Below, piece after piece: positions 15,207 to 25,762 of a stretch of DNA of 36,047 nt. Origin of the DNA: an uncultured Acinetobacter sp. (lineage in GTDB: Bacteria; Cyanobacteriota; Vampirovibrionia; Gastranaerophilales; Gastranaerophilaceae); assembly GCA_900321205.1 (NCBI GenBank), contig ONVC01000006.1, positions 1-36,047 on the forward strand. Reading direction: 5' to 3'. Position numbers and translations under genes: made by a program. A model generated the notes under the pieces. It ran no database searches, had not been told where the DNA came from, and saw only the letters and a program-made list of their open reading frames with translations. Every line of letters begins with the position of its first letter. The first letter of the stretch is position 1.

Positions 15207-15491
15207 TTAAGCAAAAATGCTGAATTGTTTAGCATCTTCTTTTTGCTGTTTTTTGATTTGTTCAAGCACAGCTTTAGCGTACTGATATTGCAGACTGTTT
15301 GTCAGCATATCAATTTCCATTTGTGTGTCCATTGCACACAAAGCCTCCGGAGAACAGCCAATACCACCCGTTGTATCACCCGGGGTGCACATTAATCCCA
15401 TTCTTGCGTTATTAATGTTCATCATGTTCATAATTGCATTATTTTTTGCATTGATATAATGCATCGCAGACATTGCTAAAATTGCTGACAT
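15207..15491 (-). CDS. Small Met-rich protein, unknown
   Basis: The 94-residue protein starts at an ATG preceded by AGGAG at a good distance. Longer starts (to 15554) lack a ribosome binding site. The N-terminal third is rich in Met, Ala and Asn and probably helical (MSAILAMSAMHYINAKNNAI). A middle CTPGDTTGGIGC segment with two Cys may form a loop, and the C-terminal helix is charged (YAKAVLEQIKKQQKEDAKQF). There is no signal peptide. I do not recognise it. It converges on the methionine operon with a 4-base gap. Confidence 0.7.
   Translation of the reverse strand: MSAILAMSAMHYINAKNNAIMNMMNINNARMGLMCTPGDTTGGIGCSPEALCAMDTQMEIDMLTNSLQYQYAKAVLEQIKKQQKEDAKQFSIFA
15210..15247 (+). terminator. Possible terminator of the metH operon inside the opposing gene
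   Basis: AGCAAAAATGCT pairs with AGCA and TTTTTGCT across a 5-base bulge, followed by GTTTTTTG. It begins 8 bases after the operon stop codon and lies within the 3' end of the convergent gene. The T-run is interrupted, so this is tentative. Confidence 0.3.
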
Positions 15492-15641
15492 AATTTCTCC
15501 TAACCTTTCCATTATCATGTTAACATATTTTTTAAACTTGTCTATTCTACCCAAAGGTATAATTTTAAAAAAAATTTTGTTTGTGTTACGATTTTTTTGA
15601 GGAAGAAAAGATAATTTACGCAGAATACAGACGCAATAGAA

Positions 15642-16739
15642 ATGAATAGTTTGAAAGACAACAAAACAATAGGAATACCCAGAGCTATATCGTATTACAG
15701 TAATTATCCGTTCTATTACGGATTTTTTACTGCACTCGGACTTGATATTGTTTTATCCGATAAAACAACAACAAAAACCATAAATGACGGCTGTAAATTT
15801 GTTGTATCAGATACTTGCCTTCCGGTAAAAGTTTATGTAGGACATGTTATAAACTTGCTTGAAAAAGGATGTGAAACAATATTTATTCCTTCTCTTCAGG
15901 CTTCAGCTTACAAGGTTAATAACTGCAGTAAGATAAGAGGACTTCCTGAAATTATCCGTAATGTTATAGATAAGCCGATAAATATTATTGACCCTGAAAT
16001 TAATAAGACAGAAGGAATATCGTTTAAAGATTTTTGTTATAATTTTGCATCAAGGTTTGGTATAACTGATGAAAATATTATAGAATCAGCAATAAAAAAC
16101 GGCTGGGAAGTTTATAATAATTTCTTCAAAATGTCTAACTCAGGACTTGGTTTTGAAGATGCTCTTAATAATGCCGTAAAAGGAATAATGGTTACAAAAC
16201 CTGTTCAGGTCGTTAAACCCCTTTCTGTTGTAATTATGGCACACGGATACAATTTGTTTGATGAGAGAATTTCTCTTAATTTAATCAAAAAGCTTGATAA
16301 AATGGGAGTTAAATCTTATACGGCTCTTAATGTAACAAAAAATGATGCAATAAAATCAATAGAAGAGCTGGGTGAAATCCAGTACTGGGCAAATGAACTT
16401 GAACTCACCGGAACGGCAGCTTATTATATGCTTAATAATAAAGTTGACGGTATTATTGCCCTTTCTGCGTTCGGTTGCGGACCTGATTCTTTAATGGTTG
16501 AAGAAGTTCAGTACCATGCAAAAGAAAAAAATATTCCGATGATTCACATTAATATTGATGAACATACAGGCGAAGCTGGTTTTGTTACAAGAATAGAAGC
16601 TTTTGTTGATATGTTGTTCAGAAAGAAAAGAAGAACATTAGAGAAAGAAAACGTTATTAACTTACTTCATACAGCAGCAGGTATTAATAAAAATACTGTC
16701 GAAAAAGAAAAACAAAAAGAAGAAGCTTTGACAAAATAG
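15642..16739 (+). CDS. Acyl-CoA dehydratase activase-related protein (DUF2229-like)
   Basis: The 365-residue protein resembles the DUF2229 part of 2-hydroxyacyl-CoA dehydratase activator-related proteins. It starts TIGIPRAISYYSNYPFYYGFF. It carries the Fe-S motif VSDTCLPVKVYVGHV, then ETIFIPSL, and near the C-terminus FGCGPDSLM and NIDEHTGEAGFVTRIEAFVDML. These cysteines probably bind a [4Fe-4S] cluster. The BadF-type ATPase usually fused to or beside such proteins is not in the window. The gene at 17819 carries the same C-terminal pattern and is a paralogue. It is 13 bases upstream of the PHP gene. Substrate unknown; plasmalogen-synthase components are distant relatives by family knowledge. 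Confidence 0.8.
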   Translation: MNSLKDNKTIGIPRAISYYSNYPFYYGFFTALGLDIVLSDKTTTKTINDGCKFVVSDTCLPVKVYVGHVINLLEKGCETIFIPSLQASAYKVNNCSKIRGLPEIIRNVIDKPINIIDPEINKTEGISFKDFCYNFASRFGITDENIIESAIKNGWEVYNNFFKMSNSGLGFEDALNNAVKGIMVTKPVQVVKPLSVVIMAHGYNLFDERISLNLIKKLDKMGVKSYTALNVTKNDAIKSIEELGEIQYWANELELTGTAAYYMLNNKVDGIIALSAFGCGPDSLMVEEVQYHAKEKNIPMIHINIDEHTGEAGFVTRIEAFVDMLFRKKRRTLEKENVINLLHTAAGINKNTVEKEKQKEEALTK

Positions 16740-16752
16740 TAAGGGCAAAAGT

Positions 16753-17799
16753 ATGTTTCAGTATTGCGGCGCTATACATATTCATTCACTATTTTCAGAC
16801 GGAACAGGGGATTTAAAAACAATTGTTAAAGCTGCAAAAAAATCCGGTTTAGACTGGGTAATCGTTACTGACCACAACACAATAGACGTAGAAGAAGGCG
16901 TTTTTGAAGGTGTTTATGTCGTAAGAGGTGAAGAAATATCACCGCACAGCGAAAATCATTATTTGGCATTAGGGATTAATGAAGTTATTGAACCTTGTGA
17001 TAATCCGCAAATATATGTTGATAAAGTCAGAAAACTCGGTGGTTTTGGTTTTGCAGCACATCCTGACGAGGGGGTTACGGTTGATGAAAACGGCAATTGT
17101 ATTCCGAGAAAAAACTCAAATCATTGTATCCGGTGGACAGATAAAAAAGTTAAACCTGACGGAGTTGAAATCTGGAACTGGTTTTCTAACTGGGCGGATA
17201 ATTATGATGACACATCTCTTTTAACAAAAGCGTACTCATTTTTCTTTAAGCATAAAATAATAAAAAATCCTTCTCCTTTAACATTAAGCTGGTGGGACAG
17301 TTTGAATAATGAAAGTGAAAATGTAGTTCCTGCGCTTGGCGGAGTAGATGCTCACGCACTTCTTATAAAAGATTATTTAATACCGCTTTATATTTTTCCA
17401 TATACAACCTGTTTTAAAACAATAAATAATGTAATTAATCTGAAAGAACCTTTGTCCGAAAATTTTAATGAGGCTAAAAAGCAAATCTTATCAGCAGTAA
17501 TAAAAGGTAATAATATTATTATTAATAAAAATATTTTTAAAGACATTCCGGAATTTTTAATCTGCAATAACGAAAATATTGCATACTGCGGAGAATGTAT
17601 AAATTTAGAAGAAAATACAACTTTGAAAATAAAATTAAATAAAAAGGCTGATATAAAGATTCTTTTAAACGGAAAAGAAATTTTTAAAACAAATGATAAA
17701 GTTTGTACTATCAAAGTAACAAAAAAAGGAAAATACAGAGCTGAGTTCACGTACAAAGGAAGAGGATTTGCATATACAAATCCGATTGTGGTTAAATAG
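16753..17799 (+). CDS. PHP-domain metal-dependent hydrolase
   Basis: A 348-residue protein with an N-terminal PHP phosphoesterase domain: HIHS (His9, His11), SDG (Asp16), VTDHN (Asp40-His41), VVRGEE, FAAHPDE and GGVDAH. All expected metal ligands appear intact. Residues about 260-348 form a beta-rich C-terminal domain (KIKLNKKADIKILLNGKEIF, GKYRAEFTYKGRGFAY), probably an immunoglobulin-like or substrate-binding module. AAGGG precedes the ATG. It sits between the two dehydratase-activator-like paralogues and may cleave a phosphate ester in their pathway; that link is inferred from gene order only. Confidence 0.85.
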   Translation: MFQYCGAIHIHSLFSDGTGDLKTIVKAAKKSGLDWVIVTDHNTIDVEEGVFEGVYVVRGEEISPHSENHYLALGINEVIEPCDNPQIYVDKVRKLGGFGFAAHPDEGVTVDENGNCIPRKNSNHCIRWTDKKVKPDGVEIWNWFSNWADNYDDTSLLTKAYSFFFKHKIIKNPSPLTLSWWDSLNNESENVVPALGGVDAHALLIKDYLIPLYIFPYTTCFKTINNVINLKEPLSENFNEAKKQILSAVIKGNNIIINKNIFKDIPEFLICNNENIAYCGECINLEENTTLKIKLNKKADIKILLNGKEIFKTNDKVCTIKVTKKGKYRAEFTYKGRGFAYTNPIVVK

Positions 17800-17818
17800 A
17801 TTTGAAAGCATAGCTGAA

Positions 17819-18991
17819 ATGATTATAAAAGATAAAAACGGAAATATAACAATATCACAAATGGATGACACAATCGCGGCTAAGGAAAGAGTTATTGCCT
17901 GGCCGAGAATGGGTAATATTGATTTATCCATGGAAGCTCTGGTAAGTTCTTTAGGTGCAAAAATTGTTATGCCTCCGCCAAATACCAATCAGGCACTTGA
18001 AATCGGTGTAAAAAACAGTATTGAAGGAATTTGCCTCCCGTATAAACTTAATCTTGCAAATTATGTTATGGCTCTTGAAAAAGGTGCAAATACGCTTATG
18101 ATGTTTCAGGCTCCGGGCTCGTGTCGTTTTGGTAACTATACAAAAATGGCTCAAAAAACACTCAAAAAAATGGGATATGAGTTTGATATGTGCGTTTTTG
18201 ATATGTATCAAAGCAAGATGAAACAAACGCTAAAAGCGTTCTGGCACGTAACACACTGTCTTAATCCGTATAGATATTATAAAGGGTTCAGCACAGGATT
18301 TAATAAAGCATTTGCTATTGATACTGCTGAAAGACTTTTGTTTTACACCCGTCCGAGAGAACTTAACAAAGGTGATGCGGAAAAGTGCTACAAAAAATGG
18401 TACAAAATTATCCATGAAACAAGTTCTATCTCAGGTTGTAAAAAATTAAAAAAGCAGGTTATTGAAGATTTTAAAACTATCCCGATTGATAAAGACAGAG
18501 TTGTACCGAAAGTGTATCTACTCGGTGAGTTCTTTGTGCTTCTTGACCCTTTTGCAAATCAGGAAATAGAAAAAACTCTGGGCGATTTAGGTGTAGAAGT
18601 TGAAAGACAGATATTTTTCTCGGATTGGTTAGAACACGTTTTAAAACCGTCTTTCTTTTATAAAAAAGAATCTCACAGAGAAAGATGTGTAAGATACGCA
18701 CAAGATTATATGAAAAGAGCGATAGGCGGTGAATGTATTGAAACTGTTGGCGATACGGTATATGGTGCACGAAATGGTATTGATGGTATAATACATATAA
18801 TGCCGTTTTCCTGTATGCCGGAAATCGTTGCTCAAAACATTTTACCTAAAGTTAGTAAACAAGAGGATATTCCTGTTTTGGAACTTGTTTTAGATGAGCA
18901 AACGGGTAAAGCCGGAAATATTACAAGAATAGAGGCTTTTATAGATTTGGTTAAAAGAAGGAAATTAAAGAATATAAAGGAGAGTGTATAA
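17819..18991 (+). CDS. Acyl-CoA dehydratase activase-related protein (COG3581-like)
   Basis: The 390-residue protein, counted from the ATG at 17819 (19 bases after the PHP stop), is the larger paralogue of 15642-16739. Fe-S and fold motifs are WPRMGNIDLSMEALVSSLGA, EGICLPYKLNLANY, MFQAPGSCRFGNY, GGECIETVGD, IMPFSCMPEIVAQN and LDEQTGKAGNITRIEAFIDLV. Conserved Cys in CLPYK, GSCRFG and FSCMPE are the likely cluster ligands. An in-frame ATG at 17768 would overlap the PHP gene and has no ribosome binding site. The two paralogues may form a heterodimer like HgdAB. An ATPase activator must be encoded elsewhere if they work by the classical mechanism. Confidence 0.8.
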   Translation: MIIKDKNGNITISQMDDTIAAKERVIAWPRMGNIDLSMEALVSSLGAKIVMPPPNTNQALEIGVKNSIEGICLPYKLNLANYVMALEKGANTLMMFQAPGSCRFGNYTKMAQKTLKKMGYEFDMCVFDMYQSKMKQTLKAFWHVTHCLNPYRYYKGFSTGFNKAFAIDTAERLLFYTRPRELNKGDAEKCYKKWYKIIHETSSISGCKKLKKQVIEDFKTIPIDKDRVVPKVYLLGEFFVLLDPFANQEIEKTLGDLGVEVERQIFFSDWLEHVLKPSFFYKKESHRERCVRYAQDYMKRAIGGECIETVGDTVYGARNGIDGIIHIMPFSCMPEIVAQNILPKVSKQEDIPVLELVLDEQTGKAGNITRIEAFIDLVKRRKLKNIKESV

Positions 18992-18992
18992 A

Positions 18993-20051
18993 ATGACAGA
19001 AACAAAATCAAGAAACAGAATGACATTTGAAAGACTAAAATATTACAGACACCTAGGTGGTGGTGCGTTAACTTGCATAAAAAGTCGTTTGTCAAAAACA
19101 CCAAAGCCCTTATGTTTTTCACTCATGGTTACAAATAAATGTAATTGTAACTGTGATTTTTGTTTTTGGAAGCATAAAAATGATCATGACGATATGCCGC
19201 TTGATGAAATTCAAAGATTATTGAAAGAAGCAGGAGAGATTGGATATTTAGACAGTATTTTATGGGGCGGCGAACCACTATTAAGACAAGATTTTACAGA
19301 AATTTGTAAAGCTTCCCACGATGCGGGTTTATATACGAAAATAGCAACAAACGGGTGGTTTTTACAGGAAAATCCGGGGTTTGGTCAATATACGGATTTG
19401 ATGTTTGTTTCTCTTGATGCTATCGGAAAAGCTCATGATGATATAAGACATTTGCCGGGAATCTGTGACAGAGTGATGAATGGTGTTGAGTACCATAAGA
19501 TACATTCTCCAAAGATGAGAATTTATGTATGTTGCACGGTTTCTGCCCAAACAGACTTTGAACAAATAAAAGAGGTTGCTCAATATTGTAAAGATGCGGA
19601 TATTCTTTTGTATTTTACGGTTAATAAATCAAATCAGGCTTTAGAAGAGGCTCAAAATGTAAAAGATACCGAGCTTGAAAGTGATCAGTTAAAGGAAATA
19701 TTTATAAAAATTAAAGATTTGAAAAAACAAGGTTTCCCGATTAGAAATTCCGATTACTTTATGGATTATATTATTGACAAAAAAAATTATTATGAATGCC
19801 ACTGGCCAAGAATTTCTACCGTAATATACTCAAACGGTGATATGCTTCAATGTTACGACAGACAACCATTCATAAGTGTAAGAGGAAGAGCTTTAAAAGA
19901 TGTTATAAAAGACCCGGTCTTTGTAGAAAGTGTAAATAAATGTAAAGATTGTAAATTGGCTTGTGTAGGTAACTATGCCCTTGATGCATCAGGACTTTGG
20001 CGCTTAGAGTGGCCTGCAATCAAATCACTCATGCAGATTGCTATTACATAA
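18993..20051 (+). CDS. Radical SAM protein with C-terminal SPASM-like cysteines
   Basis: A 352-residue radical SAM enzyme. The SAM-cluster motif is Cys50-x3-Cys54-x2-Cys57 in NKCNCNCDFCFW. GGEPLL (SAM amino group contact) and VSLDAIGKAHDDIR follow. After residue 270 there are YECHWPRIS, SNGDMLQCYD and CKDCKLACVG, resembling a SPASM/twitch auxiliary cluster. The ATG at 18993 has AAAGGAG upstream and starts one base after the previous stop, so it belongs to the preceding operon. The overall look is like HpnH/MoaA-type proteins, but no precise family can be named. An anaerobic modification of a lipid or small molecule is inferred from its neighbours. Confidence 0.85.
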   Translation: MTETKSRNRMTFERLKYYRHLGGGALTCIKSRLSKTPKPLCFSLMVTNKCNCNCDFCFWKHKNDHDDMPLDEIQRLLKEAGEIGYLDSILWGGEPLLRQDFTEICKASHDAGLYTKIATNGWFLQENPGFGQYTDLMFVSLDAIGKAHDDIRHLPGICDRVMNGVEYHKIHSPKMRIYVCCTVSAQTDFEQIKEVAQYCKDADILLYFTVNKSNQALEEAQNVKDTELESDQLKEIFIKIKDLKKQGFPIRNSDYFMDYIIDKKNYYECHWPRISTVIYSNGDMLQCYDRQPFISVRGRALKDVIKDPVFVESVNKCKDCKLACVGNYALDASGLWRLEWPAIKSLMQIAIT

Positions 20052-20058
20052 TCAGCAT

Positions 20059-20077
20059 GCCATAATTTTGTTATGGC
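20059..20077 (+). promoter_or_regulatory. Intergenic hairpin before the SLBB gene
   Basis: GCCATAA-TTTTG-TTATGGC is a perfect 7-bp stem eight bases after the radical-SAM stop codon. No T-run follows, so it is more likely an mRNA-processing or stabilising hairpin than a terminator. Confidence 0.35.
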
Positions 20078-20108
20078 TATCACAGAGAATCGTGGAAGGA
20101 TTTTTATA

Positions 20109-22511
20109 ATGTTGAAAAAGTTATTTACGTTGTTTATATTACTGGCATTTTGTTCTAATTATGCAGTTTTTGCCGCAGACCCGACAGCTATAAATCCAAA
20201 AAGCAGTGACGCTTTTGAGGATAACGAGCAGGAACTGAAAAAGGATAATTCCGTAAGGTCGCCATTAAGCGAGATAGAAAAAATATACAACGGAAAAGAG
20301 AATGCAGGCTCCAGGAATATACTGTATCAGGCAGGATATAACCTCTTTACGGCAACAAGTGCCGCAGTTTCAACGACAGGAAAGTACGATAGTTCATACA
20401 AACTGGGTATAGGAGATAAAATCAATGTGTTTTCATACGGTGATTCTGTTGATGTAATATCATTGTCAGGATCAAATCTTATATCTCCTAATACGACCGT
20501 CAGTATAGGTTCTAACGGAAGTATTTTTATTCCGGGCGTCGGACTTTTTAATGCTGATGGCAGAACTTTAGGCGAAGTTGAAAGCGAAATAAATAATGTG
20601 GCAAGAAAAAAATATTCTAATATGAAAATAAGACTTCAGGTTGCTTCCGGAGCCTTTTCGATCTTTGTATATGGTGAAGTAAGAAAGCCGGGTAAAGTTT
20701 ATGTCGGTAATAATACTACCATATTGGATGTATTAAATGCAGCAGGTGGGGTTAAAAAGTCAGGTACTTTAAGAAATATTAAACATAACAATAAATATGT
20801 TGATTTGTATAATACTTTGTTTTTAGGTAATGACAACGGTATTATGTTAAGACCTAATGATAAAATTTTTGTAGATAAAATTAAAAATACAATGGCATTC
20901 AAAAATGGTGTTGCAGCCCCCGGTATTTATGAGTTTAAAACCGGTGAAACCGTTGATGATATTATTAAATACGCAGGCGGCTTATTGGTAACGACTCAAA
21001 GAGATGATGTTACCATGGTTAGTTTTGATAAAATTTTAAAGCAAAAAACAGCTCAGAATGTACCTTATTTAAAAGCTAAAGCAACAAAGCTGTCAAACGG
21101 TGATACTTTTCAGTTCAAAGAACTCTATAATGATGTGGAAAATACTGTTACAATACAGGGAAATATCAAGCATCCTGCAACATACGCATACAAAGAAGGT
21201 ATGAGATTATCAGATATACTCAAAAATGAAGACGAACTCAGAGAAGAAACATTCATATATCAGGCTGTTATAAGAAGAATATCCGGTCAAAATAACGTTA
21301 TAGAAACCATTCCTATATATTTAAAAGAATTTTTCTCAGGAATGAATGATCCGATTTTGCAGCCAAGAGACGTTATTACCATTTATAAAAATACAAACTC
21401 CAGTTTTGTTGATGTATATGGTTGTATAAACACTCCAAAACATATTCCTTATACATCTAATATGACATTAAAAGATGTTTTATCTGATATACAATTTATG
21501 GAATCAGAAGTAAGTTCAACAGAAATAAATACAAAAACAGATGATAATACAATCTCTCAGTCGGATAAAGAAAATGGAGATGTTCAGATAAAAGTATCTA
21601 CTGAAAATTCCAATAAACTTATTCCGGCAGAAAAAATTGCAGTTGAAATATCAAATGCTTCCGGTTCAAATCTGCGATTATTATATCTATATGACATTAT
21701 GATTCGTAGTGATGCTGCTGCATCAATAAAATTGAAGCCGGAGGATAAGATTTTCTTCAGAACTCTCAGAGATAATGAAATTATTAAAACCGTTAAAATT
21801 TCAGGCTTTGTTAAAAAACCAGGGGTATATTCGTTTGTGAAGGGGCAAAGATTGACTGATATAATTGAAATGGCGGGCGGACTTGATGAAGAGGCTGACT
21901 TAAGAGGTATTATTTACAGACGGTCCAATGTAAAAAACAAACAGGTCAATTTGGCAATTAAAAATACAGAAAAGGATATAAGACTTCTTGAAGGAAGGCT
22001 TGCCTCCGGTTATAAGCAGAGTGTTAATGATCAATCAACAAAAATGACACTTATAGAGCAAATGAAAGAAAGCAATGAAACAATTGCAAAACAGTACAAT
22101 GGTCAAATTGCACTAAATATTAAGAGCAATGATTTAAGTAAAATAAGTGATTATGACAATCTTGAATCCCAAGATGGTGATGACATATATATACCAAGAA
22201 TGTCTACTTATATCGCGGTAATAGGTGAAGTATATAATGAACAGGCTTTTGTTTATAAAAAAGGTGCAACCGTTAAAAGTTATATCAAGCAGGTCGGCGG
22301 ATATACACCGAATGCAAACAAGTTCAGAATATATAAAGTCGGAGTAAACGGAAGAGCTGAAAGAACACATTTAAGAACAAAAGTGGCTGCAGGAGATACT
22401 ATTGTTGTACCAAGACGTATAGCAGGAAATGACTGGTTAACTCCTATTTCTCAAACTTTGACTTCTTTTGCGAATATAGCGCTAATGTTCTTTCTTGTTA
22501 GAAGATACTAG
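20109..22511 (+). CDS. Wza-like polysaccharide export protein with six SLBB repeats
   Basis: An 800-residue exported protein. Its signal peptide is MLKKLFTLFILLAFCSNYAVFA with cleavage before ADP; the Cys is not in a good lipobox. A poly-export domain follows (about 95-170, LGIGDKINVFSYGDS). Six SLBB units start at VYGEVRKPGKVYV, KNGVAAPGIYEF, IQGNIKHPATYAY, VYGCINTPKHIPY, ISGFVKKPGVYSF and VIGEVYNEQAFVY. Classical Wza has far fewer. The C-terminus (LTSFANIALMFFLVRRY) is a hydrophobic helix that could cross the outer membrane as in Wza. No Wzc, Wzx or glycosyltransferase lies nearby. AAGGA precedes the ATG at 20109, which I prefer to 20073 because only this start exposes the signal peptide. 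Confidence 0.85.
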   Translation: MLKKLFTLFILLAFCSNYAVFAADPTAINPKSSDAFEDNEQELKKDNSVRSPLSEIEKIYNGKENAGSRNILYQAGYNLFTATSAAVSTTGKYDSSYKLGIGDKINVFSYGDSVDVISLSGSNLISPNTTVSIGSNGSIFIPGVGLFNADGRTLGEVESEINNVARKKYSNMKIRLQVASGAFSIFVYGEVRKPGKVYVGNNTTILDVLNAAGGVKKSGTLRNIKHNNKYVDLYNTLFLGNDNGIMLRPNDKIFVDKIKNTMAFKNGVAAPGIYEFKTGETVDDIIKYAGGLLVTTQRDDVTMVSFDKILKQKTAQNVPYLKAKATKLSNGDTFQFKELYNDVENTVTIQGNIKHPATYAYKEGMRLSDILKNEDELREETFIYQAVIRRISGQNNVIETIPIYLKEFFSGMNDPILQPRDVITIYKNTNSSFVDVYGCINTPKHIPYTSNMTLKDVLSDIQFMESEVSSTEINTKTDDNTISQSDKENGDVQIKVSTENSNKLIPAEKIAVEISNASGSNLRLLYLYDIMIRSDAAASIKLKPEDKIFFRTLRDNEIIKTVKISGFVKKPGVYSFVKGQRLTDIIEMAGGLDEEADLRGIIYRRSNVKNKQVNLAIKNTEKDIRLLEGRLASGYKQSVNDQSTKMTLIEQMKESNETIAKQYNGQIALNIKSNDLSKISDYDNLESQDGDDIYIPRMSTYIAVIGEVYNEQAFVYKKGATVKSYIKQVGGYTPNANKFRIYKVGVNGRAERTHLRTKVAAGDTIVVPRRIAGNDWLTPISQTLTSFANIALMFFLVRRY

Positions 22512-22527
22512 TTATGGATTTGAATAC

Positions 22528-23166
22528 ATGGAAAAACGAAATTACAACCGAAGATATCCGGAAGACTACGGATTCATAAGAACAACTTGGATTACATTGT
22601 TCCTGTGGTTTGTAGTTTGGCCTGCGGCATTCTTGTGGTACACAACTTGTGTTAAAGGCTGGAAGAATGTGGATAGACGCAAACGTTATGTTTACACGTC
22701 TAACCATCAGTCTTATATTGATCCTCCGTTAATTTCAGTTGTTGCAAACGCTCCGGTTGCGTATATGGCGAAAAAAGAACTTTATGAACACAAGAATCCT
22801 TTCATAAGATTTTTGGTTATAAGTTTAGGTGCTTTTTCCGTTGACAGAGAAAATCCCGAAAAAGCAACAATAAAAACTATTATTGATATAGCAAAGAAAA
22901 CAAAATGGAACATAGGAATGTTTCCTCAGGGAAGACAGATAAAAGATGGCGAAAAATTCAATGATATAAAGCCGGGGTTTGTTGCAATTGCAAAACTTGC
23001 CAAAATGGATATTGTTCCGATTGCGATATGTAATTTTACAGGTTACACCTGGATTCCTTTTATGAAACATCTGACTTTAAAAATAGGTAAACCTATATCT
23101 TATGAACTTCCGGAGGAAGAAATTGTAAAACAATGGGTTGATTATATGAAAGCGAATGCAGATTAA
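22528..23166 (+). CDS. 1-acyl-glycerol-3-phosphate acyltransferase-like protein (PlsC family)
   Basis: A 212-residue PlsC/LPLAT acyltransferase that would esterify a lysophospholipid or related acceptor at the membrane. A hydrophobic segment (about 18-38, WITLFLWFVVWPAAFLWY) precedes the acyltransferase motif SNHQSYIDPP (NHxxxxD). Motif II reads FPQGRQ instead of the usual FPEGTR, and motif III is VPIAICNF. The change in motif II may reflect an unusual acceptor. The ATG at 22528 is preferred to a TTG at 22495 inside the SLBB gene. It sits between envelope and radical-SAM genes. Confidence 0.85.
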   Translation: MEKRNYNRRYPEDYGFIRTTWITLFLWFVVWPAAFLWYTTCVKGWKNVDRRKRYVYTSNHQSYIDPPLISVVANAPVAYMAKKELYEHKNPFIRFLVISLGAFSVDRENPEKATIKTIIDIAKKTKWNIGMFPQGRQIKDGEKFNDIKPGFVAIAKLAKMDIVPIAICNFTGYTWIPFMKHLTLKIGKPISYELPEEEIVKQWVDYMKANAD

Positions 23167-23232
23167 CCTATTGAATATACATTACCCCTGTGATACCTTA
23201 TAAATAGCTTTGAAACACAGAGGAGAAATATA

Positions 23233-24771
23233 ATGAGAGTAAAAGAACAAAAAGCCATGTGGCAGTCGAACTCAATGGGTGCTTTTGACAGACTTAAACT
23301 TAATTTTAATAATTTTGTAATAGACCAGACAATTAATTATTTGGGACATAATTTTTCAAAACAAAAACTTATAAATCTTGCTAAAATATTTGAAAAAATC
23401 GCAGGTTCAAAAGGTGGTATAAATCACGCAAGAAGAATGCAGTGGCTTTTTGAATCTGAGCACGCTCACCTTTTCTGGTGGAAAAAGATTTTAACAGAAC
23501 TTCATCCAAATTGCAGAAATAAATGGATTAAAAACTTTTTCGTTAACGGATATTATGGAGATAATCTGAGAAAAAGAACAGAGTTCAATGAAAAGAACGG
23601 ATTTTTTCCGCCAACAGTTTTACTTGCAAGTATTACAAAAAACTGCAATTTCCATTGTAAAGGCTGTTGGGCACACGAATATGATGTCAGAGAAGACTTA
23701 ACAAAAGACAAATGGAGAGAGATTTTTACAGAAGCTCGTGATGTAATGGGTATTCATATATTTCCGATTGTTGGCGGTGAACCTTTTATCCGAAAAGAAT
23801 TTTTGGAACTTTGTGAAGAGTTTAATGACTGTACATTTATTACTTTCACAAACGGTTCTTTGATTACTGAAAAAACCGTGCGTGAACTTCAACGATTAGG
23901 TAATGTTCAGCCAATGTTCTCAATAAGCGGTTTAAAAGAAAATACTGACGCTGTTCGTGGCGAAGGTACTTTCGATATGGTAATGCAAAAAATGGATATG
24001 CTCAAAAAAGCAGGTATATTCTTTGGCGCTTCTGTTGTTGCAACTTCTCAAAACTGTGACGAAGTAACTTCTGATGAGTTTATGAAAATGCTATCAGATA
24101 AAGGCTGCCTGTGGACTTGGTTCTTCCACTATGTTCCGGTTGGAGACAGTCCTGATATTTCTATGACACCAAACGCAAATCAAAGAAGACAAATTTTGAA
24201 AGCCGTTTATAACGCAAGAAATACACTTCCTATGATGACGGTTGATTTCTGGGGTGACGGTCCTGAAATGATGGGTTGTATTGCAGGCGGCAGACAATAC
24301 GTTCACGTTAATCCGAAAGGGGATGTTGAACCTTGTACATTTGTTCACTTGGCAACACATAACGTAAATAACTGTACACTTACAGAAGCTCTTGCTTCAC
24401 CGTTTATGAGTGCAGTAAGAAACGGTATTCCGTATGAAGACGGAAATATGCTCAGACCTTGTATGATTGTTGACAGACCTGATGTTTTAAGAAAATACTA
24501 TCAGGAGTTTAAACCGTACGAAACTCATGAAAACGCAGCAGCATATTTAACTGATCCGCAGATTACATCTGAGATTGATAAATATTCATCAGAAGTAAAA
24601 GAAATCTTAGATAAAGACTGGAGAGAAAATCTCTGGATGACAATATTTCCGCTTGAAGGCGAATATTATATTGACAGAGATCACTTCTGCTCAACAGAAA
24701 AACCCGGGGTAAATCAAACAACTGAACATTCTTGCAACGGTCAGTGTGCAGGCTGTGGTTGCCAGGGGTAA
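23233..24771 (+). CDS. Radical SAM protein with cysteine-rich C-terminal tail
   Basis: A 512-residue radical SAM enzyme. The cluster motif is Cys138-x3-Cys142-x2-Cys145 in KNCNFHCKGCW, with VGGEPFIR and FSISGLKENTDAVRG downstream. A second cysteine set (GCIAGGRQYVHVNPKGDVEPC, RPCMIVDRPD) resembles a SPASM-type auxiliary cluster site. The last 20 residues end HSCNGQCAGCGCQG, five more Cys that may bind a third cluster or metal. The first 130 residues are helical and not part of the core. AGAGGAG lies just before the ATG. The family is not recognised. The last codons and stop form a GGGGTAAATAT repeat. Confidence 0.85.
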   Translation: MRVKEQKAMWQSNSMGAFDRLKLNFNNFVIDQTINYLGHNFSKQKLINLAKIFEKIAGSKGGINHARRMQWLFESEHAHLFWWKKILTELHPNCRNKWIKNFFVNGYYGDNLRKRTEFNEKNGFFPPTVLLASITKNCNFHCKGCWAHEYDVREDLTKDKWREIFTEARDVMGIHIFPIVGGEPFIRKEFLELCEEFNDCTFITFTNGSLITEKTVRELQRLGNVQPMFSISGLKENTDAVRGEGTFDMVMQKMDMLKKAGIFFGASVVATSQNCDEVTSDEFMKMLSDKGCLWTWFFHYVPVGDSPDISMTPNANQRRQILKAVYNARNTLPMMTVDFWGDGPEMMGCIAGGRQYVHVNPKGDVEPCTFVHLATHNVNNCTLTEALASPFMSAVRNGIPYEDGNMLRPCMIVDRPDVLRKYYQEFKPYETHENAAAYLTDPQITSEIDKYSSEVKEILDKDWRENLWMTIFPLEGEYYIDRDHFCSTEKPGVNQTTEHSCNGQCAGCGCQG

Positions 24772-24797: not shown

Positions 24798-24817
24798 TTT
24801 ATAGTCCAATAATTAAT

Positions 24818-24860
24818 AAAAGTTGTTCTGCAATTATATAACTGAACAACTTTTATTTTG
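24818..24860 (+). terminator. Rho-independent terminator of the 15.6-24.8 kb cluster
   Basis: AAAAGTTGTTC (24818-24828) pairs perfectly with GAACAACTTTT (24844-24854), loop 15 bases, then ATTTTG. The stem is symmetric with A and T tails, so it may act on both strands. It closes the co-directional cluster. Confidence 0.75.
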
Positions 24861-24898: not shown

Positions 24899-25762
24899 AT
24901 GATGAACTGCGTCTTGATAGTAACAAACTTTAATGCCGGACGAAAACGAGCGGTCAGGTATAAAAAGCGTGTAATCAGTTTTGTATTAAAATATACAAAA
25001 TTGTTTAAGTTTGTCGATATTGACGAGTTCAGAGAAACAGATTTGACCCCGTATGATACCATATTTGCAATGGGAGGGGATGGTACTGTTAACAAAATCA
25101 TTCCTTATATTGTTAATACGGATAAAGTTTTGGGAATAATCCCATGCGGTACGGCAAACCTTCTTGCAGCAAAGCTAGGTTTATCAGGGAATATTAATAA
25201 GACTATAAAAATAATAGAAAAGCAGAACGTCAAAAAAATAGATGTTTTTGATATTAATGGCGATAAATGTGCTTTAAGATGCGGTTTTGGGTACGATTCT
25301 GATATTATATGCAAAACTCCTCAATCGCTGAAGAATAAATTTGGGTATTTTGCTTATTTTATTGCAGGGATAATTTTCGGTTTCAGGCTTAAAAACAGGG
25401 ATTATAAAATGACAATTGACGGAGAGTTGAAGGAAGTTAATGCGTCCTGTATAATTTTTGCAAATGCGGCTAATATGTATAAAAATGTTGTTACTTTGGG
25501 TAATGACACAGAGCTTGATGATGGTTTAATGGATATTTTTATGCTGAAAGTTACTAATCCGGTTATATTTTATCTTGAGTTTTTAAGTATTATTATAGGC
25601 ATAAGGAATAATAATAACAGGGCAGAATACTTTAAAGCTAAAAGCGTCAGAATAGAAAATAACTGGCTTGCGTGTCATATAGACGGGGAAAAAAAGAATC
25701 TGAAAGGCGATATAGATATAAGGATTTTGGAAAAATCAGTTAGAGTTTTTGGTAAAAAATAA
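24899..25762 (+). CDS. Diacylglycerol kinase-catalytic-domain lipid kinase (DgkB/YegS type)
   Basis: A 287-residue soluble lipid kinase. The nucleotide-binding loop is FAMGGDGTVNKII (GGDGT), with IIPCGTANLLAAKLGL after it. The C-terminal beta domain contains ANAANMYKNVVTLGNDTELDDGLMDIFML, as in DgkB. The likely substrate is diacylglycerol, giving phosphatidic acid, though YegS-like enzymes can use other lipids. The neighbouring PlsC-like gene fits a lipid context, but a terminator and its own promoter separate them. Start could be M1 (24899) or M2 (24902). Confidence 0.9.
   Translation: MMNCVLIVTNFNAGRKRAVRYKKRVISFVLKYTKLFKFVDIDEFRETDLTPYDTIFAMGGDGTVNKIIPYIVNTDKVLGIIPCGTANLLAAKLGLSGNINKTIKIIEKQNVKKIDVFDINGDKCALRCGFGYDSDIICKTPQSLKNKFGYFAYFIAGIIFGFRLKNRDYKMTIDGELKEVNASCIIFANAANMYKNVVTLGNDTELDDGLMDIFMLKVTNPVIFYLEFLSIIIGIRNNNNRAEYFKAKSVRIENNWLACHIDGEKKNLKGDIDIRILEKSVRVFGKK

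Follow-up and report, generated by a model that had tools for sequence, protein, structure and literature searches.

The window (the whole stretch of DNA analysed here, 36,047 nt) is contig C69 of a 1.83-Mb genome that is 92% complete; the named members of the genome collection closest to it are Candidatus Gastranaerophilales of rumen and gut, which are non-photosynthetic Cyanobacteriota. Positions 15642-24771 are filled by seven open reading frames (ORFs), all in the same direction. They encode a DUF2229 protein (A), a PHP hydrolase (PHP), a divergent DUF2229 protein (B), a radical S-adenosylmethionine (SAM) protein (rSAM1), an SLBB-domain protein (SLBB), a PlsC-type acyltransferase (PlsC) and a second radical SAM protein (rSAM2). 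The original prediction for this DNA had named these co-directional genes with their domains and proposed that they form one functional unit; ORF and domain searches found all seven. The genes very probably serve one pathway, as argued by their co-occurrence across genomes, by a conserved gene order and by the operon rSAM2-B-A-B2, with which other families of the order show an alternative arrangement. What is this pathway for? Tentatively, and with somewhat less than an even chance, we take the cluster to be most of one anaerobic route for remodelling a glycerolipid, which would probably be the lipid portion of a glycan anchor or of a surface (glyco)lipid.

Co-occurrence and gene order

Five genes were searched in the same 146 genomes of the window's family, with cluster-type B defined by more than 70% identity. 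Cluster-type B and rSAM1 are found in an identical set of 31 genomes. rSAM2 and SLBB occur in those 31 (for SLBB, 31/31 genomes with B and rSAM1) and in G448, where both additional genes are incomplete and share one short contig. PHP occurs in those 31 and in G411, whose contig breaks off within B, just past A and PHP. Both of these extra genomes thus have the end of a contig within the unit. Fisher p values are about 1e-29 to 1e-32, a statistic that ignores phylogeny. Twelve genera hold both carriers and non-carriers, and all of them are concordant. Are the genes just chance neighbours? The distance between rSAM1 and rSAM2 is short in 18 genomes and 16-44 kb in 6, and in 6 others the two are on separate contigs, so linkage alone does not explain their co-occurrence, and chance neighbourhood is ruled out by the genomes in which the genes are unlinked. 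For an additional 57 relatives reaching other families, rSAM1 and rSAM2 mostly agree, and the genomes where they disagree are fragmented or less complete. Nor is the trait a marker of an outer membrane or lipopolysaccharide, since LpxC is nearly universal in the family (144/146 genomes).

The order A-PHP-B-rSAM1-SLBB is contiguous and on one strand in 34/40 loci, with median gaps of 2.5, 8, -1 and 43 bp in the loci surveyed; most of the other six loci miss a gene at a contig end or hold one additional small ORF. Conservation of gene order had been proposed as a check on the unit: the core is not scattered, and rSAM2, unlinked in some relatives, yet co-occurs. The genes 3' of SLBB are variable. 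They are PlsC-rSAM2-DGK in the window (DGK is a YegS-like lipid kinase gene) and rSAM2-PAP2-DGK, DGK-rSAM2-PAP2 or exopolysaccharide genes elsewhere. The cluster therefore divides into two modules: five genes (A, PHP, B, rSAM1, SLBB) that make up a fixed core, and a second module around rSAM2. In the loci of relatives rSAM2 is often accompanied by a PAP2 phosphatase and a YegS-like lipid kinase, and judged from them the DGK of the window belongs with rSAM2 and the PAP2 phosphatase. PlsC, which the original prediction counted as part of the cluster, is present in the window but lies near the core in 14/40 loci, and is thus an occasional neighbour, not a fixed member. The exopolysaccharide genes beside the core in relatives encode a sugar transferase, an epimerase, a glycosyltransferase, RmlA/RmlC-like proteins and a chain-length-type protein. 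The core can also be split: G438 has B alone (L035:10013-11134, L101), with PHP, rSAM1 and SLBB on other contigs. In one carrier genome the SLBB gene (G468:C46:1048-3407) has several in-frame stops, from decay or assembly errors.

How are these genes arranged elsewhere in the order? In three other families, f2, f3 and f4, rSAM2 is directly beside B and A, typically as rSAM2-B-A-B2, where B2 belongs to a second DUF2229 pair described below. On a tree, B of f2-f4 groups with the window's B (support 98/96), and B2 of f2-f4 groups with the universal B2 of the window's genome, a side that is weakly resolved. Family f7 has B-rSAM1-SLBB, with rSAM2, DGK and PAP2 about 10 kb off. rSAM1 is on its own in f2-f4, with a lipid kinase gene next to it in one f3 genome, and linkage of PHP and SLBB is seen only in f1 (both) and f7 (SLBB). 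B, rSAM1 and rSAM2 belong together in at least five families, and the rSAM2-B-A-B2 arrangement appears to be an older one. In f2-f4 one A sits between the two B-type genes, B and B2 (L072:13414-14523, L074:6516-7628, L075:2828-3934), which suggests that one A may pair with either.

A reductase-type pair and two radical SAM proteins

The original prediction placed A and B in the dehydratase-activator superfamily, as distant kin of PlsA/PlsR. The kinship holds and is closer than was claimed, but it points to a reductase and not to an ATPase activator. Single-ORF PlsA has the architecture Act1-Act2-Red1-Red2 (PMC12838417). Fused PlsA-type proteins of Acetoanaerobium, Haliovirga and Collinsella are about 1450-1590 aa long. 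Their first reductase half is matched by A and their second by B; in all three the halves are consecutive and located after the activation domains. A aligns with residues ~685-1040 of the fused proteins at 24-28% identity, B matches Red2 of Acetoanaerobium with E 9e-18, and all three cluster Cys of each half align with the Acetoanaerobium protein. These cluster ligands, C59, C95 and C279 in A and C72, C102 and C332 in B, are invariant in the alignments. The AlphaFold model of B (pLDDT 83.8) gave Foldseek matches above background only to the HGD superfamily (E 1.6e-8 to 1.5e-5). Its best matches in the Protein Data Bank (PDB) are the 2-hydroxyacyl-CoA dehydratase, benzoyl-CoA reductase and double-cubane protein families, with structural Z of 11-15 (14-15 over about 300 residues) and sequence identity of 10-15%. 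A domain search found no BcrAD/BadFG activation domain in A or B, and the one strong activase match in the window's genome is on contig C101, unlinked to the cluster. Because A and B match the Red halves with their Cys, B is predicted to have this fold and the activase is separate, A and B are, as far as sequence and model tell, a reductase-type component. A role as ATPase activators is ruled out by the missing activation domain, with an ASKHA activase encoded elsewhere.

Which known system is nearest? A-B shares with PlsA/PlsR/Ger of Clostridia, Thermotoga and others the two reductase halves in the same order with three Cys each, an anaerobic lifestyle and lipid genes nearby. It differs in being encoded by two genes with 20-28% identity, and in its linkage to two radical SAM genes, PHP and SLBB. 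PlsA, PlsR and Ger carry one or two fused BcrAD/BadFG domains, which A and B lack; for this reason the pair is not filed as PlsA or Ger. Bacillota genomes hold PlsA homologues without activation domains whose role is unclear (PMC13274423), and by sequence A and B are of this same general type. By analogy, the closest working model for the unit would be a PlsA/Ger reductase split in two and combined with radical SAM chemistry. The closest homologues of A and B found outside the order (32% each) are in the clostridium Monoglobus pectinilyticus, in an operon where A', B' and a stand-alone activase lie side by side. The two-subunit build is alike; unlike in the window, the activase is adjacent there, and no radical SAM, PHP or SLBB gene is beside it. 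The 2-hydroxyacyl-CoA dehydratases, benzoyl-CoA reductases and double-cubane proteins share with the pair the predicted B fold, the three-Cys [4Fe-4S] site, the two-subunit build and the separate ASKHA activase, but at the low identity given above A and B are a separate DUF2229 branch. Genes of CoA-thioester pathways were found neither in the window's cluster nor conserved near the loci of relatives, and a literature search for a function of DUF2229, COG3580 or COG3581 found nothing relevant.

The window's genome has a second DUF2229 pair, A2 and B2, and a stand-alone activase, in three separate housekeeping loci. A2 adjoins ruvC and polA, and B2 adjoins mutL and an NAD kinase gene. A is 48% identical to A2 and is an extra copy in this genome; B2-type proteins match in 142/146 family genomes.

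Both radical SAM proteins have an intact CX3CX2C motif (C50, C54 and C57 in rSAM1; C138, C142 and C145 in rSAM2), and rSAM2 has further conserved C349, C368 and C410 in the alignment. The nearest NCBIfam model of rSAM1, PTO1314 (TIGR03961), gives 107 bits where 306 are required, so rSAM1 is not a member. Neither protein belongs to HpnH (TIGR03470, cut-off 225 bits), with 49.7 bits for rSAM1 and 38.3 for rSAM2. rSAM2 matches the Tes core at 1e-9, and in its length (about 510 aa), its N-terminal extension and its C-terminal Cys residues this radical SAM protein resembles Tes and Mss, the latter by description only. Tes, however, has an N-terminal rubredoxin site and an auxiliary CX3CX2C cluster before the radical SAM motif (PMC9433317). 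Residues 1-137 of rSAM2 hold one Cys (C94), so that the rubredoxin and auxiliary-cluster Cys are absent, and rSAM1 has two Cys (C28, C41) before C50. Tes membership is thus ruled out for both. The structure model of rSAM2 was poor (mean pLDDT 51.8) and was left out of the fold search.

Matches to the radical SAM proteins outside Cyanobacteriota come only from the plasmid collection and viral contigs. Full-length rSAM2-like proteins with 33-34% identity are on two enterobacterial plasmid records (Table 1), near replication and IS66 genes. Shorter ones of about 355 aa are at L068:5221-6933 (a Methanosphaera plasmid, beside a TetR-type regulator gene), at L111:5926-6990 and on L112. No close relatives of rSAM1 or rSAM2 were found in the viral contigs, where a wider profile gave two partial homologues (30-32%; L111, L112) and otherwise weak radical SAM matches.

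As for the other core proteins, the PHP ligands H9, H11, D16, H41, E61, H103, D199 and H201 are invariant in the alignment. PHP gives 65.4 bits over residues 4-346 against the CehA/McbA NCBIfam model, under its cut-off of 80, and is therefore not assigned to it; a search of the plasmid collection gave no matches. The SLBB protein has Poly_export followed by SLBB domains, as polysaccharide export proteins do. Like SLBB/Wza-type exporters it is found beside glycan genes in relatives. It differs from them in its size (about 800 aa), its several SLBB domains and its constant company of A-PHP-B-rSAM1 in the window's family.

A candidate lipid pathway and its alternatives

A glycerolipid is suggested as the substrate by the Pls/Ger kinship of A-B together with the PAP2, lipid kinase and PlsC neighbours, and a link to the envelope by SLBB and the glycan genes. 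In the pathway that we infer, A and B would form a heterodimer with one [4Fe-4S] cluster per subunit, and the ATP-driven activase encoded on contig C101 would deliver an energised electron to it. A-B might then reduce or dehydrate the lipid at low potential, for instance turning an acyl ester into a (vinyl) ether, while rSAM2 and rSAM1 would act on C-H bonds of that molecule by radical chemistry. In loci that have them, PlsC, PAP2 and the lipid kinase would supply or trim the glycerolipid, and PHP would hydrolyse a (phospho)ester intermediate. The product, or a polymer anchored by it, would exit via the SLBB protein. A more specific version is possible but rather unlikely: a new anaerobic pathway in gut Cyanobacteriota to an ether-type or C-C-modified surface lipid or glycolipid, built of a split Pls-type reductase, a shared activase, two dedicated radical SAM enzymes and export through an SLBB porin.

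Several points weigh against the glycerolipid reading. What the analysis shows is gene content, homology, the predicted B fold, co-location and co-occurrence; the substrate is inferred. The identity of A and B to PlsA-type proteins is only 20-28%, and their closest homologues, the Monoglobus pair, have no known function. rSAM1 and rSAM2 are in no family with a shown lipid substrate, given the absent Tes features and the HpnH scores far below cut-off. Lipid kinase and PAP2 genes are common generally, and the glycan genes beside the core would fit sugar chemistry equally well. Moreover, no SLBB or PHP gene was found near rSAM2 or rSAM1 in f2-f4, so export may be a later addition.

Could the unit make a glycan instead? 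It might produce a sugar of an unusual deoxy, dehydrated or C-modified kind, or modify an oligosaccharide linked to undecaprenyl, for an SLBB-exported exopolysaccharide, with A-B as a dehydratase or reductase. We consider this improbable, with a chance that is nevertheless appreciable. The SLBB export gene is always in the five-gene core of the window's family, and sugar transferase, RmlA/RmlC-like, epimerase and glycosyltransferase genes follow the core in many relatives. However, these glycan genes vary among loci while the core is constant, rSAM2 accompanies lipid enzymes, and the rSAM2-B-A of f2-f4 has no glycan genes nearby. Known HGD-type enzymes, too, use CoA thioesters or, in the case of PlsA and Ger, lipids.

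Another candidate is the synthesis of membrane-spanning ether lipids, with rSAM2 as an Mss-type tail coupler and A-B as a Ger-type ester reductase. Mss and Ger, a PlsA homologue, are a known bacterial pair (PMC13274423, PMC11604127), and here a radical SAM gene and a Pls-type reductase pair share one operon in three families. Mss has been recognised by at least 30% identity and E <1e-30 to Thermotoga Mss (PMC13274423). By analogy this candidate has a small chance: rSAM2 is without the Tes N-terminal Cys motifs and is likened to Mss by description only, Ger has two fused activation domains where A-B has none, and the second radical SAM protein would be left unexplained.

It is about as unlikely that A-B is dedicated to supplying rSAM1 and rSAM2 with low-potential electrons, or to maturing their cofactors, and that these two alone do the chemistry. 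Double-cubane and HGD proteins attain very low potentials and radical SAM enzymes need a reductant, with which the strict co-occurrence and the rSAM2-B operon would agree. But a flavodoxin or ferredoxin normally serves radical SAM enzymes, and B2-type proteins are in nearly all family genomes, with or without rSAM1 and rSAM2, so that the protein family has uses of its own. Least likely is that rSAM2 and rSAM1 are SPASM-like maturases of a small ribosomally synthesised and post-translationally modified peptide (RiPP) that the unit exports: rSAM2 has its best PDB sequence matches in the SPASM-type enzymes SkfB and PqqE, and a small ORF containing Cys and Gly lies upstream on the other strand (15207-15554), but this ORF recurs in only one other locus, the core gap medians of at most 43 bp leave no fitting precursor, genes for a peptide chaperone or an ABC peptidase were not seen, and the lipid genes would be left unexplained. 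A RiPP locus was rejected, there being no conserved small precursor gene beside the radical SAM genes.

Why does the glycerolipid reading matter? Ether and membrane-spanning lipids of bacteria are used as biomarkers and climate proxies, and their producers and enzymes are only partly known. In this unit a near-perfect pattern of presence and absence links one Pls-type pair without activation domains with an envelope exporter and two radical SAM enzymes, and this makes the question testable, with a defined gene set and related gut genomes that have it or lack it. As the original prediction had supposed, no described system with this gene set was found in the literature searched, most subscription papers lying outside the search. 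Many anaerobes have Pls-type reductases that lack activation domains and to which no role is assigned (PMC13274423). If the unit is indeed a split Pls-type reductase pathway, it would give a role to these common homologues.

Feature map and minor observations

Table 1. Coordinates of the cluster, its neighbours and related loci (window positions unless a locus is named)
Feature	Position	Strand	Basis or remark
A: predicted stand-alone DUF2229/HGD-D reductase subunit (Red1-like)	15642..16739	+	Pfam DUF2229, E 3e-45
PHP: predicted metal-dependent hydrolase, CehA/McbA-like, with C-terminal beta domain	16753..17799	+	PHP domain match
B: predicted divergent DUF2229/HGD-D reductase subunit (Red2-like)	17819..18991	+	DUF2229 just under Pfam cut-off
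rSAM1: 352-aa radical SAM enzyme, Cys-rich C-terminal region	18993..20051	+	Pfam Radical_SAM
SLBB: Poly_export outer-membrane polysaccharide-export-type protein	20073..22511	+	Poly_export and several SLBB domains, over Pfam cut-offs
PlsC-type acyltransferase, variable member	22528..23166	+	Pfam Acyltransferase, E 3e-22
rSAM2: 512-aa radical SAM enzyme	23233..24771	+	radical SAM domain match, alignment, co-occurrence
Hairpin followed by U-rich stretch, putative terminator	24815..24857	+	RNA fold -14 kcal/mol, z -4.1
DGK: YegS-like lipid kinase, just past the hairpin	24899..25762	+	DAGK_cat, E 4e-18
A2, B2 and activase loci	L056:1424-2509, L057:1607-2746, L059:8017-9021		three separate loci, same genome
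rSAM2-like	L066:2254-3633, NZ_CP117576.1		Escherichia albertii plasmid
rSAM2-like	L067:7896-9197, NZ_CP077819.1		Klebsiella pneumoniae plasmid

Some gene starts probably differ from those of the longest ORFs. The likely starts are ATG 17819 for B (the longest ORF begins at TTG 17768), ATG 18993 for rSAM1 and ATG 22528 for PlsC. SLBB perhaps starts at ATG 20109, in which case a signal peptide is present. A strong terminator had been predicted at 24818. There is a hairpin at this place, with a stem of about 14 bp and the tabulated z measured against shuffles, but "strong" is generous: it is A/T-rich, and a strict terminator scan omits it because of its 15-nt loop and few G-C pairs. The small upstream ORF at 15207-15554 encodes 115 aa, is divergent from A and has a CTPGDTTGGIGCSPEALC stretch; the one other locus that holds it is from a close relative. 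Finally, L039, a contig labelled "uncultured Acinetobacter", holds the Gastranaerophilales cluster with 58-97% protein identity, and its bin is for this reason probably mislabelled or contaminated.

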